Part shown: piece after piece, positions 36,150 to 43,697 of the stretch
How the letters are laid out: the number at the start of each line of letters is the position of its first letter
Numbering within the stretch: the first letter of the stretch is position 1
From: an uncultured Methanomicrobiales archaeon
Lineage (GTDB): Archaea; Halobacteriota; Methanomicrobia; Methanomicrobiales; Methanospirillaceae
Direction: 5' to 3'
DNA length: 64,000 nt
Assembly (NCBI GenBank): GCA_903832665.1
Contig: CAILCG010000024.1
Coordinates: 1 to 64,000, forward strand
Position numbers and translations under genes: made by a program
Notes under the pieces: generated by a model
Databases searched by the model: none
What the model saw: only the letters and a program-made list of their open reading frames with translations
Told to the model about the DNA's origin: nothing

Positions 36150-37454
36150 TTACATCGACCTCTTATCGATAACTTTCTTTGATTTCCCCTCAAATCTGGG
36201 TAATGAGCCCGCTTCGACTAGTTCGATATCTACATTCACGTTCAGGGAATTCCTGAGCCGGTGTTCAACTTTCTGCCTTACCAGCATAAGATCATTGATT
36301 TTGTCACTGAATGATTCTTTGTTCAGTTCTACGCGAACAAGCATATCGTCAAGGGCCCCTTTACGGGTAACTTCGATCTGGAAATGTTCACCTACTTCGG
36401 GAATTGCCATGAGGGCATACTCGATCTGTGACGGGAAGACGTTGATACCCCGTATGATTAGCATGTCGTCAACTCTCCCCTGGATCCGCTGGATCCTCGG
36501 GTGTGTTCTGCCACAGGCACACACATCTTCCTCCATTGTCGTGATATCCCCAATGCGATACCGGATCATGGGGAGTGCTTCTTTCTGCAGGATGGTGATG
36601 GTGAGTTCACCCTTTTCCCCGGTTTCAAGGGATTCGCCGGTCTTGGGATCGATAATTTCCACAAGGGCGATGTCTGACCAGATGTGGAACCCTTTCTGTT
36701 CCGCACATTCGGTAAACATCGGGCCGGACAGTTCGCTCGTGCCGTAAATATCATAGGCGCAGATACCAAGCCATTCCTGGATGCGGTTGCGCATACCTTC
36801 GGTCCACGGTTCAGCACCAAGAATTCCGGTGCGCAGCTGGGTATCTTTTTTGATATTTACCCCCATTTTCTCTGCAACTTCTCCGATATGCAGGAGATAG
36901 GAAGGGGTACAGGCTATCGCGGTTGCTCCAAGATCCTGCATCAATTCTATCTGGCGTTCCGTGTTTCCTACACTGGTTGGAAGTACTGTTGCCCCGATAC
37001 GCTCGGCGCCATAATGCATCCCCAGCCCTCCGGTGAAAAGGCCATATCCATAACTTACCTGGATCACATCTCCCCTGCCCAGACCGATTGAGGTGAGACC
37101 TCTGGCAAGCGAGGTTGACCAGTTGTCCAGGTCGTTTTGTGTATACCCGACGACGGTGGGTTTCCCTGTTGTTCCTGAAGATACATGATAGCGGACGAGT
37201 TCGTCTTTTGTTGCGGTGAAAATCTTATCCGGGTAATTGTCCCTGAGATCACGCTTGAACATGAACGGGAGTTTATGAACATCAGAAAGTTTGTGGATAT
37301 CATCCGGGTGAACTTTCTGCTCTTTCATCCGATTATGGTAAAATAGAGAGAAACTGTACAGCCGGTACACAAGGCTCTTGAGCAGTTTGTACTGCATTCT
37401 CTGCAGATCTTCTCTGGGCATTTCCTCGATTCGTGGATCCCAACACTTCATCAA
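36150..37454 (-). CDS. paaK: Phenylacetate-CoA ligase family protein (second of pair)
   Basis: A 434-residue acyl-adenylate enzyme of the PaaK family. The ATP motif SSGTTGKPTVVGYT (about 90-103), YGTSELSGP and the C-terminal LPRFEGKSKKVIDKR region are intact. In methanogens, aryl-CoA ligases of this type recycle phenylacetate, indoleacetate or similar acids for aromatic amino-acid synthesis through 2-oxoacid ferredoxin oxidoreductases. It overlaps the upstream paralogue by four bases (ATGA). Confidence 0.9.
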   Translation of the reverse strand: MMKCWDPRIEEMPREDLQRMQYKLLKSLVYRLYSFSLFYHNRMKEQKVHPDDIHKLSDVHKLPFMFKRDLRDNYPDKIFTATKDELVRYHVSSGTTGKPTVVGYTQNDLDNWSTSLARGLTSIGLGRGDVIQVSYGYGLFTGGLGMHYGAERIGATVLPTSVGNTERQIELMQDLGATAIACTPSYLLHIGEVAEKMGVNIKKDTQLRTGILGAEPWTEGMRNRIQEWLGICAYDIYGTSELSGPMFTECAEQKGFHIWSDIALVEIIDPKTGESLETGEKGELTITILQKEALPMIRYRIGDITTMEEDVCACGRTHPRIQRIQGRVDDMLIIRGINVFPSQIEYALMAIPEVGEHFQIEVTRKGALDDMLVRVELNKESFSDKINDLMLVRQKVEHRLRNSLNVNVDIELVEAGSLPRFEGKSKKVIDKRSM

Positions 37455-38740
37455 ATTGCCTCCCTTCTGTCTATCACGCGCTTCGCCTTCCCTTCAAAAC
37501 GGGGTAATGATCCGGGCTCAACAAGCCTGACCGTTGTTCGCAGTTCTAGGGTACCGCGAAGTTCTTTTCCCACTTTTTTCTGGATTTTTGCCAAATCCGT
37601 CAATTCACCACTGAAAACGTCCCGGTTAATCTCGACTTCGACAGTCATTTCGTCCAGATGATTAATTCTGTCGATATATACCATAAATTGATTGCCGACT
37701 TCCGGGATCTTGAGAAGCACGTGTTCAATCTGGGAGGGGAATACATTGATACCACGGATTACCAGCATGTCATCGCTCCTGCCGGTGATCCTGGCGATCT
37801 TCTGTGCTCTCTTACAAAGGCAGCCATCTTCCATCAGCATCGTGACATCCCCGGTACGGTATCTCAGGAGAGGCATAGCTTCTTTGACCAGCGGGGTCAC
37901 GACCAACTCCCCCCGCTCCCCGTCAGCGACGCGTTCTCCGGAAATCGGATCACTGATCTCAACCAGATAGGAATCATGCCAGATATGGAGCCCGTCGCGT
38001 TCCTTGCATTCGAATGCCACTCCGGGTCCAAAGAGTTCGCTTAATCCGTATGAATCAAATGCTGTAATTCCTAATCGTTTTTCAAGGGTTTTTCGTACAC
38101 TCTCTGACCATGGTTCGGCCCCAAAAATTCCGGTCTTAAGACTATCGAGAGATTCATCCATCTCTTCAGCAACTTCCGAAAGATGCATGGCGTAACTCGG
38201 TGTACAGTGAATGGCAGTCACGCCAAAATCCCTTATCATCTCTATCTGGCGCTTGGTGTTACCGGTTGCGCTGGGTATAACCGTCATACCGATCTTTTCT
38301 GCTCCATAGTGGAACCCGAGACCTCCGGTGAACATTCCATAATTTACCATGTTCTGGAAGATGTCTTCTTTTCCTATCCCGATCATCGTCATATTGCGTG
38401 CAATCAGGTCAGACCAGACATCCAGATCTTTTTTGGTATACCCTACGACCGTGGGTTTCCCGGTTGTTCCTGAAGTTGTGTGGATGCGGACAATTTCCCT
38501 GAGAGGTACTGCAAAAAGCCCGAAAGGATACCCATCCCGAAGATCCTGTTTTTTTGTAAAGGGGATTTTCTGGATATCATCCAGTGTTTTAATTGATGAC
38601 GCTGTTATTCCTGCATCAGAGAGACGTTTTTTAAAAAAACCAACCTTTTGTGCCTGCCTGATCGTTTTCTTCAAACGTTTGAGCTGAAGTGCCTGCAAAT
38701 CATCAGGTTTCAGGGTCTCAATCTTTTTATCCCAGAACAT
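37451..38740 (-). CDS. paaK: Phenylacetate-CoA ligase family protein (first of pair)
   Basis: A 429-residue paralogue of the next gene, sharing the TSGTTGKPTVVGYTKKDLD motif, YGLSELFGPGV and the same C-terminal LPRFEGKAKRVIDRR region. The two align end to end, which points to tandem duplication with possible specialisation for different aryl acids. It is the first gene of the paaK-paaK-ACT unit. Confidence 0.9.
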   Translation of the reverse strand: MFWDKKIETLKPDDLQALQLKRLKKTIRQAQKVGFFKKRLSDAGITASSIKTLDDIQKIPFTKKQDLRDGYPFGLFAVPLREIVRIHTTSGTTGKPTVVGYTKKDLDVWSDLIARNMTMIGIGKEDIFQNMVNYGMFTGGLGFHYGAEKIGMTVIPSATGNTKRQIEMIRDFGVTAIHCTPSYAMHLSEVAEEMDESLDSLKTGIFGAEPWSESVRKTLEKRLGITAFDSYGLSELFGPGVAFECKERDGLHIWHDSYLVEISDPISGERVADGERGELVVTPLVKEAMPLLRYRTGDVTMLMEDGCLCKRAQKIARITGRSDDMLVIRGINVFPSQIEHVLLKIPEVGNQFMVYIDRINHLDEMTVEVEINRDVFSGELTDLAKIQKKVGKELRGTLELRTTVRLVEPGSLPRFEGKAKRVIDRREAI

Positions 38741-38927
38741 CTACGACCTCTGTTATGCTATCGCATGACAAAATATGTCGTGGCTACGGTATATAATCAC
38801 TGAAATTTTGGAATTGAAAAATAGATATTAGGAGATTCTTGAATTTCTTTTGGAAAATGTGCAACGATGATTTAATCTGTGGAAATGTGGTAGTAATTAT
38901 CTGAATTGTGCAGGATCATACAAAGTT

Positions 38928-39860
38928 ATGCAGACAAATTATTCTTGGCTGTCGGTAAGTGGGTTTGGCTCTCACATAAAATCGACACAAAAAACATTGA
39001 TTATCCAGAAAAAAAACGGGCTTGAGGAATACCCTTTTGAATCGATAAAAAATCTTCTCATTGTCGGCGGGCATACCATAAGTTCAGCAACGATAACCCA
39101 ACTCATAAAAAAAGGTGCGGTCATCACTTTTTTTGAACCTGATGGCAATCCGATCGGGACTATCAGCCCTTTTGGCATTAATAATGACAGTGAGATTAAT
39201 CGCGTTCAGCAAACCGGATCACGGCACCGGTTTGCAACAGCCATTGCGCACGGGGCGTTAAGGTCCCGTCTTGTGGCCATCAATCGCTTACAGGAGAAGC
39301 AGAACATCTCACTGTTTTATGAAGGTGAGTCGGATTTCCTTCACAAATCCCTGGAGGAAATGGCATACCTGATCAAACTCGATGAGATTCGCCGGCTTCA
39401 CCGCATGACTTCCGATATGTACTATGAAATTATGTCGCGCAGCCTAAGGCCTGACATTGGATTCCGGCGAAGGACACTTCGCCCTCAGATAGATCCTGTG
39501 AATGCGATGCTATCATTTGGCTATGCAATGCTGTATGGGAATTGCTGTGTCTCCCTTATTGGTGCGAGGCTGGATCCTGACCTGGGCCTCCTGCATGAAG
39601 GTCATGGAAGCCTGGTGACAGATATTTCCGAATCGATGAAATCAGCAATGATTGATGATATGGTTTTTACCATCGCACGGGATTCCCTTACGCCGGATGA
39701 TTTTGAAGTTACTCACGATCGGTGTATGTTATCGGATGATTTGGCAAAAAATCTCATAAAAACATTTCATACAACAATAAATAATAATCAGATAACTGAA
39801 CAGGTCTCCAATCTTTCAAATGCGATCAGAAATAATGCTGAATTTAAAGCCCAGTACTGA
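38928..39860 (+). CDS. cas1: Solo Cas1-like integrase (no CRISPR locus)
   Basis: A 310-residue Cas1-family protein. The N-terminal beta domain (about 1-85, with NLLIVGGHTISSATITQLIKK) and the helical catalytic domain are recognisable. The core segment RPQIDPVNAMLSFGYAML (185-202), GARLDPDLGLLHEG with His223, and SLVTDISESMK with Asp232 and Glu235 match Cas1. At the position of the first catalytic Glu (Cas1 consensus IEG) the sequence reads LHRM, giving His158 by my manual alignment. No Cas2, other cas genes or repeats lie near. It fits the 'Cas1-solo' proteins reported from Methanomicrobiales. Function is unknown. Its 3' end overlaps acyP by 17 bases, tail to tail. Confidence 0.88.
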   Translation: MQTNYSWLSVSGFGSHIKSTQKTLIIQKKNGLEEYPFESIKNLLIVGGHTISSATITQLIKKGAVITFFEPDGNPIGTISPFGINNDSEINRVQQTGSRHRFATAIAHGALRSRLVAINRLQEKQNISLFYEGESDFLHKSLEEMAYLIKLDEIRRLHRMTSDMYYEIMSRSLRPDIGFRRRTLRPQIDPVNAMLSFGYAMLYGNCCVSLIGARLDPDLGLLHEGHGSLVTDISESMKSAMIDDMVFTIARDSLTPDDFEVTHDRCMLSDDLAKNLIKTFHTTINNNQITEQVSNLSNAIRNNAEFKAQY

Positions 39861-40137
39861 TATTCCCTTCACCTTTGATAATGGAAAAGTCCTCGAAATT
39901 TTTTAACTGAATTTCCGACTGTCGGAGATCCCTGATTACAGCACGGGGACATCCATACACCATTGATACAAATTTTTCTAGAATCATCAATTCCCCGGTT
40001 GCACAAATGTGAACCCTCCCGTCCGGTAGATTCATAACCGTGCCGCAGACTTTCAGATCGGTTGCGATTCTTCGAACGCATGCTCTGAATCCAACTTTCT
40101 GGACCCTTCCCGAGATTACTATCTCGATTGTTTGCAC
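39844..40137 (-). CDS. acyP: Acylphosphatase
   Basis: A 97-residue acylphosphatase hydrolysing carboxyl-phosphate bonds. The active-site loop GRVQKVGFRACV with its Arg (about residue 18) and the CGTVMNLPDGRVHI segment with the catalytic Asn are present. It starts two bases after the stop of the giant helical-repeat gene, so the two are co-transcribed. It overlaps the end of cas1. Confidence 0.92.
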   Translation of the reverse strand: MQTIEIVISGRVQKVGFRACVRRIATDLKVCGTVMNLPDGRVHICATGELMILEKFVSMVYGCPRAVIRDLRQSEIQLKNFEDFSIIKGEGNISTGL

Positions 40138-40139
40138 GT

Positions 40140-43100
40140 TTAGATCTCCTGCATTATTTTAATTGCAAGGCCTAGTTCATCGAAGACTTCATCCCGGAGA
40201 TTTGACTGGCGGATATTTGTGGCCGCGTCGATGGCGTAATCAAGTACTTCCTGTGCGGCTATTTCACAGCCAACCGCATGAATCTTCATTGCAATATCGC
40301 ACATGACAAACGCCCTGCGGGAAAGTGGCCGGATGATACGGGCTTCTTTTATCGCACTCTGCAGCATTCGTTTGGAAAGTTTTCCATTTCCCTCATTTCT
40401 GAACAGAATTGAAAGACTACAGAAAAAAAATGCTTCTTTTCCCCGATCGGCCACCGAATTGATAATGCGTTCAAGAGTTGCGATCTGATTGGGATGAGCT
40501 CCGTCAGAGATAATTTTCTCGGTAATTGCCCTGATTTTAACATAGTGGGGAGAGATCTCATAACTATCCTTTTGTCCCATCTGCACAAGGCGGTGAAGTC
40601 TTAAGCCGTCATCATCAATGGTCTGTGTGGTATCAATTGCGAAATTGAGATGTTTTTTATCATTACGCGTCGAGTAGAGCATTGAATATACTTGGGCAAC
40701 TTTGTCGCGGATTGTATCTGCTATATACTGGATGTTGATGCTTTTTGTCAATGAATCTGCCTTTTTTAACAGCGGCAGGACCGATTCATCATTATTACAT
40801 TGTAAAGCGAGCGGGATAATGTCCAGAATAATTGAGGCACGCTCATATGGTGAGGGAATTTTTTCTGTAGTTTCCATCATCAGTTTGAGGAGCTCAGCAC
40901 AGCGATCATCATCTTGTTTTATCATCCTGGATATCGCTATGAGGGAATTGATGTAATCGACCGGTACTTTAATAGGAGATACAACATCGAATGCAATATT
41001 TATCAATGCATCATCTGGAGCGATCGTATAAAGGTTGACTAGAGAAAACACAATCTGTTTGCGGGCTTTTGCACTATCCGGAAACTCTCCCGCATGCAGA
41101 ATAGTAATTCCTTCCTCCAGGCATTTTTCCGCTTTTTTCTGATCGATGTGGCAAAACAGGGTGGTAAGGTCTGCCAACACCATTACTTTGGAATACTGGT
41201 CGGGAAGATAATTCACTGAATCGAATATCGTATTGAGAATTTCTGATGCATACTCTGATTCTCCGGATTTAATAAGAGAGTCGGCCAGGTTTGATAATCC
41301 CATGAGGCGGTTGTAGGGATCCTGTATCAGATGAAGGACCCGATATATCAGATGGGAAATAACGGTATTTGATCGAGCCTGCACATTTCTTTGCAGGAGG
41401 TATGCCAATATTTCGTAAGAATCTGTTGAACCCGGCAGGGGGGTCTCCTCGTTGAGATTGGAGATAATCCGGGACATCATCGCATCCCGTTCCAATGGGT
41501 TGCCAATCTCAACAGCGTACATCGCCAGGGGGATGATAAAATCAGGGTTATCGCTTGTTTTGGAATAGGAAATTATCACATCAATTAATCCGGCAATTTT
41601 TAGTGAGATATGAGGTGTTTTTACATTTACCTTAATGATTTCCAGTGCACGTTCGAATGGAGGGATTGAGGTTGAAAAATCCAGAATCTGGGATTGGAAT
41701 TTTGAATCCTTCAGAATAATGCAACCGATTTTGATAAAATTCTCAGAGATCCGTTCACATAATTGAGTTTTTAGTACCGGATCGCCAATTTCCTGTGCGA
41801 TGAGGTACGCTTTTTCGAGTGCATCAGGGGACCGGTTGTCAATAGCATATTTGATGATCCCATCGATGATATTTGCCATTGCATAGGTTGCCAGATCTTT
41901 TTCAAGGAGGGAATTACTCCATTCTTTCATTCGTAAAAGGAGATCCAGATCACCCTGCTGAGCTGCCAGGATTGCTGCTTCATCAATAATTCTCCCCAAT
42001 GTGGCAGACCGGGTATTCTGTCCCTCAATCTGGCAGGTAAGTCCCACTGCTCTCTGAAGGAAATCACGGTTTTTTGTCTGCACACCCATTTGGGCAATTT
42101 TTATAACAATATTTGATATCGCTCGTTCTTTTATGGGTAATTCTTTGATAGAATCTGCGAGTTTAATCAGAATGCCCGGCTCATGGGAGTTGAGGAATGC
42201 TCTGTCTACCAGAAGGGTAATACATTCAAGGATAAGTGAATCCCGTCTTGGATGCAAGAGAAGGAGGTCTCTAAGCGAATGGATATGAACGACGATGTCA
42301 TCGAACGGAAAATTACGGGAAATTTCCATGATGGCTCTGGATATGGCACTATGAGAAATTTCTGCGGGAATGTTACAGAGAATTGAATCGTTTACTATGG
42401 CGATCGAATTATTTTTCACTCCCGCAATTAAAAGATTGGTAACACAATCGGTATATGAAGAGATATTTTCAGATTCAAAATTGACTTTCCCAAAGATATT
42501 GAGGGTAGATTCGAAATTTCCGGCACTGAGCATAATCTGCGAAAACTGAAGATAAACATGGGACAGATATACGTGATTGCAGTTTTTTTCTATAATGGGA
42601 ATCAGGTCGGAAAGGACGTTTATCTCATTTGAATGGCGGGCAACTGAAATCCCGGCTTTAATAATTTCCCGGATTGGATATTTATCCGGATTTGAAATCA
42701 GGTGCTGCAGTTTCATTGCGGATTCAAAGTACCAGGTATCCCCGCATTTCTCTGCTTTCCTGAGAAGATCAATGACAAGGGTCCCCGTAACAAATGGAAG
42801 GGCACTGCAGAGTGTCTGAAGGACTTTTACAATCTGTTTTTTATCTTTTTCGCGCTCGAGGAATTGCTCTGTCAGAGCGCTGATAATTTCGAGTTGTTTT
42901 TCAACAGAAATATCTTTGAAATTCCCGGAAAATTCTACAACGTCCGACAGATCCCGGGAAAATTCTGATCTGGCCCCCTTCTCAATAATGGAATTTATAC
43001 AATTCTGCCTGCGAATCTTCTGATGGATATCGGTGGCTATCCTGATACTTTCAAGCAATAACGATCGATTTTTTTCCAGAATCGCTATGGTTGCAGTCGC

Positions 43101-43697
43101 TTTTGCAAGTTCGGAATGAAGGACTGCACGTTTTGAGATATCTCCGATATCTTCAATGAGACTCAATGAGGTGTGGAGGCGTTTTTCATCGCGGGTGGTA
43201 ATTGCCCAGACGATCAAAAGCGGTATGATATCGATCATAATATCCGATCGGTATTTTCTGAAACTGATCCGATCGAGCATCAACATTCCTTCTTCTATGA
43301 ATGAAGTGTCTGCACGAGAAACTCCTGACTCAATGAGATCCCGTGCCATAAAGGCAAAAACACGTGACTGGTAACTTTTTTTCCCCAATATATTGGATAA
43401 GAAAAGAAGGGATTTTAACCAGGCTTCATCTTTTGTTTTAATGTATTGGGAGAGAATGCAGGAGAATAATGTTTCGATTTCATTGCTGGGAACATCTGAA
43501 AGTGCGTATAAAATTGAGGGAGTATTTGTTTTTATAGCAGTGTCAACCAGGAGATGATCCAGATCGGAGACAATTGTTTTTCTTGCATGTCTTCCCTGTG
43601 TAAGGTGGAGATTGTCAATACTACTTTTAACAATCTTCCAATCTTCTGGGGATAGCGCCTGCTGAACCTTATCGAATATTTCTGTGGGTTTTACCAT
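40140..43697 (-). CDS. Giant alpha-helical repeat protein of unknown function
   Basis: A 1185-residue soluble protein without signal peptide or membrane segments. It consists almost wholly of amphipathic helices, with recurrent blocks of about 35-60 residues of the type hydrophobic-xx-I..A...R...L..I, resembling HEAT/TPR-like superhelical scaffolds. Recurring elements such as SRIISNLNEE and ISRMIKQDDD illustrate the pattern. I recognise no catalytic motif. Such proteins usually act as scaffolds. It is in one unit with acyP and next to the solo cas1; whether that is functional is unknown. Confidence 0.7.
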   Translation of the reverse strand: MVKPTEIFDKVQQALSPEDWKIVKSSIDNLHLTQGRHARKTIVSDLDHLLVDTAIKTNTPSILYALSDVPSNEIETLFSCILSQYIKTKDEAWLKSLLFLSNILGKKSYQSRVFAFMARDLIESGVSRADTSFIEEGMLMLDRISFRKYRSDIMIDIIPLLIVWAITTRDEKRLHTSLSLIEDIGDISKRAVLHSELAKATATIAILEKNRSLLLESIRIATDIHQKIRRQNCINSIIEKGARSEFSRDLSDVVEFSGNFKDISVEKQLEIISALTEQFLEREKDKKQIVKVLQTLCSALPFVTGTLVIDLLRKAEKCGDTWYFESAMKLQHLISNPDKYPIREIIKAGISVARHSNEINVLSDLIPIIEKNCNHVYLSHVYLQFSQIMLSAGNFESTLNIFGKVNFESENISSYTDCVTNLLIAGVKNNSIAIVNDSILCNIPAEISHSAISRAIMEISRNFPFDDIVVHIHSLRDLLLLHPRRDSLILECITLLVDRAFLNSHEPGILIKLADSIKELPIKERAISNIVIKIAQMGVQTKNRDFLQRAVGLTCQIEGQNTRSATLGRIIDEAAILAAQQGDLDLLLRMKEWSNSLLEKDLATYAMANIIDGIIKYAIDNRSPDALEKAYLIAQEIGDPVLKTQLCERISENFIKIGCIILKDSKFQSQILDFSTSIPPFERALEIIKVNVKTPHISLKIAGLIDVIISYSKTSDNPDFIIPLAMYAVEIGNPLERDAMMSRIISNLNEETPLPGSTDSYEILAYLLQRNVQARSNTVISHLIYRVLHLIQDPYNRLMGLSNLADSLIKSGESEYASEILNTIFDSVNYLPDQYSKVMVLADLTTLFCHIDQKKAEKCLEEGITILHAGEFPDSAKARKQIVFSLVNLYTIAPDDALINIAFDVVSPIKVPVDYINSLIAISRMIKQDDDRCAELLKLMMETTEKIPSPYERASIILDIIPLALQCNNDESVLPLLKKADSLTKSINIQYIADTIRDKVAQVYSMLYSTRNDKKHLNFAIDTTQTIDDDGLRLHRLVQMGQKDSYEISPHYVKIRAITEKIISDGAHPNQIATLERIINSVADRGKEAFFFCSLSILFRNEGNGKLSKRMLQSAIKEARIIRPLSRRAFVMCDIAMKIHAVGCEIAAQEVLDYAIDAATNIRQSNLRDEVFDELGLAIKIMQEI

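Follow-up and report, generated by a model that had tools for sequence, protein, structure and literature searches.

Cas1 is known as the integrase of immunity and of casposons. The locus considered here, located in a window of 64,000 nucleotides (the whole stretch of DNA that was analysed) from a Methanoregula genome, raises the question of what such a protein does when it stands outside both settings and carries a histidine in the position of its first catalytic glutamate. The reading that we favor, and that we consider fairly probable as a whole, is that a Cas1 was captured, lost its catalytic activity and was kept for a non-catalytic job.

A solitary Cas1 gene

The gene is a 310-codon open reading frame with an ATG start:

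38928..39860, forward strand: Cas1-solo (group 1) gene, full Cas1 fold with H158-H223-D232-E235, assigned by Pfam and NCBIfam matches and an AF2 model

The Pfam family Cas_Cas1 (PF01867) covers residues 9-280 of the 310-aa product (E=1.1e-56), which is also matched by TIGR00287 of NCBIfam (E 2.8e-47). An AF2 model derived from 45 orthologues (pLDDT 88.9, pTM 0.85) aligns end to end with solved Cas1 structures, predicting that the Cas1 fold is intact. Among these, the closest was casposase 6opm_B (Z 29.1, rmsd 2.4, 298 residues), tied with Synechocystis Cas1 7cr6_B (Z 29.0). The first-pass annotation had described a full-length protein of the Cas1 fold that lacks CRISPR and cas partners as well as CRISPR repeats and casposon ends, a description that held in all its parts. 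The gene is the sole PF01867 match in the host genome (2.88 Mb, 98.8% complete), and profile searches of the whole genome yielded no match for Cas2 or Cas3-HD, nor for Cas6, the latter searched with one family model that is narrow and detects 2/14 controls. Within the window, neither CRISPR repeats or tandem arrays around the gene nor long terminal inverted repeats flanking it were seen.

This gene represents a known family, Cas1-solo group 1, in Methanoregula, in agreement with the initial assignment to a solo group of the Methanomicrobiales. Group 1 was described as confined to this order, with no evidence for horizontal transfer and with a full active site in no member (Krupovic 2014, PMC4046053). 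The present locus shares these traits, being order-restricted and apparently vertically inherited, with no CRISPR link seen and with an incomplete quartet, and we see no essential difference between the two. To the description of the group we add its near-universality, purifying selection, a new set of invariant residues, an upstream element and a single member whose quartet is complete. The group is also said to go back to Makarova in 2013.

Decay of the catalytic columns

The four positions of the metal site are encoded as follows:

39399..39401, forward strand: His158 codon, sharing its alignment column with E141 of E. coli Cas1, the first catalytic Glu
39594-39596, forward strand: His223 codon
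39621-39623, forward strand: Asp232 codon
39630-39632, forward strand: Glu235 codon

Column 158 is Glu in 10/10 and then in 31/31 CRISPR Cas1 proteins (all of the 31 controls being from the phylum and 30 from the same order), and residues 153-162 of the window protein align with the IEG region of 7cr6 in phmmer comparisons. His223, Asp232 and Glu235 match H208, D218 and D221 of the E. coli protein in the alignment. Both the replacement of the first catalytic Glu by His158 and the presence of the other three residues, as initially read from the sequence, are thereby confirmed.

All four residues are retained by each of the 31 CRISPR Cas1 controls, and none of the four columns changed in these proteins on the tree. 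The picture is a different one in the solo proteins, for which redundancy-weighted column frequencies were calculated from 124 orthologues. Column 158 is occupied by H (0.55), S (0.14), E (0.11), F (0.09), Q (0.04) and Y (0.03), and column 223 by H (0.51), S (0.16), Y (0.10) and R (0.08) as well as N. Column 235 has E (0.52), D (0.36) and N (0.08), with D/E in about 88-95%, leaving D232 as the single member of the quartet that is invariant across all 124 orthologues. Columns 158 and 223, both invariant in CRISPR Cas1, take ranks 169/310 and 177/310 in solo conservation, and the solo tree records 17, 26 and 17 changes at columns 158, 223 and 235 versus 0 at column 232, with a median of 20 per column. 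Since their change counts are near this median, the three catalytic columns behave much as ordinary positions do. In addition, the Gly of the catalytic motif at position 156 is replaced by Arg, and that at position 159 mostly by Arg or Lys.

These findings bear on the two readings of the altered active site that had been proposed at the outset. His158 turned out not to be conserved within the solo group, and altered metal use centered on this residue was not borne out either, as columns 158 and 223 are both freely variable; the idea that His158 had become a new and conserved ligand of the metal was therefore rejected. Lost integrase activity, in contrast, gained support, as the activity has very probably been lost, judging from the catalytic columns. 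That the solo Cas1 is catalytically inactive and exapted is, in our view, highly probable. Residual metal binding would be possible, considering the invariant D232, the mostly acidic residue 235 and one orthologue with a complete quartet. Glu occurs at position 158 in five solo proteins, and the complete quartet is missing from 123/124 orthologues. The remaining one, from a Lac Pavin MAG (L160, JAPKXR010000189.1), combines a complete E-H-D-E quartet, either retained or regained by reversion, with the solo-specific R156, MYYE and R171 residues, and in the larger set studied here it is one exception to the published statement that the quartet is absent from every member.

New invariant residues and charge

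Conservation in the solo proteins is concentrated elsewhere on the helix that contains residue 158:

39378..39440, forward strand: former catalytic helix, residues 151-171, with the solo-specific invariants R156, M164-Y165-Y166-E167 and R171 (zero entropy in 124 solo proteins)

Six residues, namely R156, M164, E167, R171, E134 and C266, show no variation among the solo proteins but are variable in CRISPR Cas1; on the tree, R156, M164, E167, R171 and E134 changed 0 times within the solo group versus 3-18 times within CRISPR Cas1. Assuming 100 degrees per residue, the conserved face of helix 151-171 is displaced from residue 158 by 27 degrees (bootstrap 19-36) in CRISPR Cas1 and by 193 degrees (186-198) in solo proteins, with helix moments that are modestly significant (shuffle p 0.01 and 0.04, respectively). 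Most of the new invariants lie on the side of this helix opposite to the one formerly used in catalysis, and this shift of conservation makes exaptation for a non-catalytic role likely. From the sequences, we infer a loss of catalysis combined with the gain of a new interface. The median net charge is -5 in solo proteins versus +3 in CRISPR Cas1, with a pI of 6.1 versus 8.5; the drop from +3 to -5, as calculated from sequence, would argue against general DNA binding. At the same time, arginines 114, 155, 156, 171, 180, 181 and 265 become conserved in the solo group, with new conserved arginines close to the helix of the former active site.

Gene neighborhood and possible alternative uses of the old active site

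Downstream of the gene, two features on the opposite strand are relevant:

39844..40137, reverse strand: acylphosphatase gene (PF00708, E=2e-18), convergent to cas1-solo, with 17 bp shared by the two 3' ends
40140..43697, reverse strand: gene for an all-helical repeat (solenoid) protein of 1185 aa, an order-specific neighbor (AF2 model all-helical, pLDDT 87)

The neighbors originally listed, namely two phenylacetate-CoA ligases, an acylphosphatase and a giant helical protein, were corroborated by Pfam and AF2. Comparison across the order revealed conserved synteny, with paaK-paaK / cas1 / acylphosphatase-giant-glmM-mobB-DUF5806 as a widespread gene order; a cas operon around solo cas1 was never observed in the loci examined. 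The acylphosphatase gene is the most constant neighbor, being found at most 1.5 kb downstream in 87/94 loci (not fully de-duplicated), and the gene for the 1185-aa protein lies downstream in 60/94. Judged from orientation, the neighbors of cas1 are divergent or convergent and none is co-transcribed with it. Upstream, positions 36150-38740 (reverse strand) harbor tandem phenylacetate-CoA ligase-like genes and an ACT-domain-like gene, a unit that precedes cas1-solo in much of the order. The 1185-aa solenoid protein matched no Pfam or NCBIfam family, and its orthologues, found in 21 genomes of a 197-genome phylum sample, belong to Methanomicrobiales only and usually adjoin the acylphosphatase gene and cas1-solo.

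Such a neighborhood invites a metabolic interpretation, according to which the old active site has become a pocket rich in arginine that accepts a phosphorylated ligand or other small anion, or a protein partner, with a functional link to acylphosphatase, GlmM and PaaK. The persistence of the convergent acylphosphatase gene, the newly conserved Arg positions and the loss of global positive charge are all in line with this idea. However, the divergent or convergent neighbors form no operon with cas1, and the 17-bp 3' overlap can by itself hold the acylphosphatase gene in place, such that its adjacency need not imply a common function. We regard a metabolic role as rather unlikely.

Very unlikely, in our estimate, is a protein that still cuts or joins DNA through a rewired metal site in which His158 or other residues take the place of the Glu. 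Histidine is a possible metal ligand, D232 is invariant, column 235 has largely retained its acidic character and the Lac Pavin protein keeps E-H-D-E; yet columns 158 and 223 change freely, with aromatic or small residues among the replacements, and the two motif glycines have given way to Arg or mostly Arg/Lys.

Distribution, origin and selection

Searches with a profile of 47 orthologues detected solo cas1 in 217/232 genomes of the class, including 133/135 high-quality ones, and in 38/40 genera, nearly always as a single copy. Two high-quality genomes of the order (G005 and G161) are those in which the gene was not found, reflecting either a gap in the assembly or a true loss. In the phylum sample, it was present in 83/83 members of the order, while the 310 phylum genomes outside the order contained no true member; one weak match among them branched with CRISPR Cas1. 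In a maximum-likelihood tree, 68 solo proteins fall on one side of a branch with 100/100 support and a length of 1.49 changes/site, opposite to 31 Cas1 proteins of the phylum. Covering these 68 and 31 proteins, the tree separates the solo clade from Cas1 of the phylum and gives no indication of the parent Cas1 branch. The restriction to one order, the conserved synteny and the lack of members in viral contigs provide no signs of horizontal transfer; a viral origin was rejected because no viral relative of solo Cas1 was found in IMG/VR. One contig labeled Geobacter sp. UBA4074 (L136, DFYU01000109.1) contains a cas1-solo locus that resembles those of Methanoregula, shows the customary gene order and has 58% protein identity; it is most likely mis-binned or mislabeled.

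The same distribution bears on whether the protein might serve CRISPR adaptation as an accessory subunit or a regulator, pairing with an active Cas1 or with Cas2 of the host's own systems. Many genomes of the order also have 1-4 CRISPR Cas1 genes, and the fold and a probable dimer interface are common to both kinds of protein. Against this, no further Cas1 and no Cas2 match was found in the genome studied here, and 7/32 near-closed genomes likewise have no Cas1 besides the solo one, pointing to a role independent of CRISPR; its absence from cas operons among the loci examined adds to our impression that an accessory function is highly improbable.

Selection on the gene was estimated by simple counting after Nei-Gojobori, with dS values of up to 2 admitted. 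The resulting dN/dS values are approximate, with a median of 0.156 (range 0.06-0.26) for 334 close orthologue pairs and values of 0.08-0.13 for the window gene versus its nearest relatives. This is the pattern of a working protein under purifying selection and not of a relic. Group 1 proteins were indicated in a later paper as probably vestigial because of their lost catalytic residues (PMC9755687), and this loss would fit a relic of a CRISPR or casposon Cas1 that is decaying and no longer serves a purpose, but intact reading frames in 133/135 high-quality genomes, a dN/dS of about 0.16, newly invariant residues and a conserved upstream element make this extremely unlikely. Retention and selection thus correct the published suggestion.

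A conserved element upstream of cas1-solo

Two adjoining segments precede the start codon:

38863..38877, forward strand: conserved cis element AACGATGATTTAATC, 15 bp, 65 bp upstream of the start codon
38878..38907, forward strand: lineage-specific extension of the element, in close Methanoregula only, with 45/45 identity in five close relatives

In close relatives, this upstream block is far more conserved than its flanks. The 15-bp core AACGATGnnTTAATC at 38863-38877 occurs as one exact copy in the genome; when 45 genomes, i.e., this one and its relatives, were searched, 20 of the 21 exact matches were located just upstream of cas1-solo, and a reversed control pattern gave 0 matches. With a weight matrix derived from 17 close sequences and a threshold set at 1% null, 20/45 distant orthologues scored above the threshold at positions -53 to -90, compared with 1/45 for the reverse complement and 0.9% for random genomic windows; the element can therefore be recognized in much of the order. 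As the element persists where the upstream neighbor is not paaK, it belongs to cas1. Within the genus, paaK has a comparable 15-mer at -21 (13.6 mean matches versus 13.9 for the cas1 element), and the best upstream 15-mers of other genes are less uniform (minimum of 8-11 matches versus 13 of 15 for cas1). The element is a candidate promoter or operator on sequence grounds, and it may be an ordinary core promoter.

Three further interpretations were discarded. A C/D-box RNA was rejected owing to a box D that is not conserved, no covariation and no Rfam match. A two-codon uORF (ATG NNT TAA/TGA) would be compatible with many genera, but not with the orthologues of one family (f4, CGATCnnTTCATC) or with one further locus (L189). 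A regulon was dismissed because the genome contains no further exact copy and 1-mismatch copies are at chance level. One such one-mismatch copy was noticed elsewhere (L212, positions 1507-1521); it is flanked on one side by a small gene of the lipoprotein-like kind and on the other by a helix-hairpin-helix gene resembling the N-terminus of PolX, which is followed by uvrB.

Proposed role and relation to known systems

Single origin, near-universal presence, purifying selection, decay of three catalytic columns and a new invariant set with D232 kept are established at the level of sequence comparison. Building on these, we propose that Cas1 was captured once by the ancestor of the Methanomicrobiales, that integrase and nuclease catalysis was then lost and that the gene was retained as a single-copy core gene. 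The protein would still fold as a Cas1 and probably dimerize like one, but metal would no longer be positioned for strand transfer. A new conserved interface may have arisen where the helix once used in catalysis faces away from the old active site, possibly assisted by a putative local arginine cluster (R114, R155/156, R171, R180-182 and R265). Its likeliest role would then be that of a structure- or sequence-specific nucleic-acid binder or scaffold that does not cut; for nucleic-acid binding without cutting, we see a chance just short of even. The most accessible candidate DNA ligand would be AACGATGnnTTAATC, although autoregulation by binding to its own upstream element is a conjecture that we consider doubtful. 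Bolder still, and in our opinion improbable, would be an essential or near-essential core protein throughout the order, i.e., a dead Cas1 acting as a non-cutting, self-regulated DNA binder at a unique chromosomal element, unrelated to immunity or mobility. The family suggests that a Cas1 fold was domesticated once, lost catalysis and joined the core genome of an archaeal order. As a constrained core gene with its own residues and cis element, it has a function that is testable: the invariant R156, E167 and R171 and the single-copy upstream element are handles on a question that has been open since 2013.

Casposases (Cas1-solo group 2, 6opm) provide the best structural match, tied with 7cr6, and are likewise found outside CRISPR loci, but they keep the four catalytic residues where the solo protein has His158, and they sit with PolB and HNH between terminal inverted repeats, whereas housekeeping genes and no long inverted repeats flank the gene here. 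CRISPR Cas1 proteins (A. fulgidus 4n06, Synechocystis 7cr6) have the fold, D232, Y165, R182, N192 and D243 in common with it; they possess the E/H/D/E quartet, Cas2 and an array, whereas the solo proteins form a separate clade (100/100), with no Cas2 match in this genome and no array in the window. Exapted, catalytically defective CRISPR-Cas variants (PMC6452270) resemble it in that catalysis was lost and the protein kept for another role; those are effector modules, however, and here a lone adaptation protein would have turned into a core chromosomal gene. Finally, among the genomes of the order compared in 2009 (PMC2686161), one is listed as having a single CRISPR-associated gene but no array; going by the gene counts, we infer that this genome is that of Methanoculleus marisnigri and that the gene in question encodes the solo Cas1 of this species.
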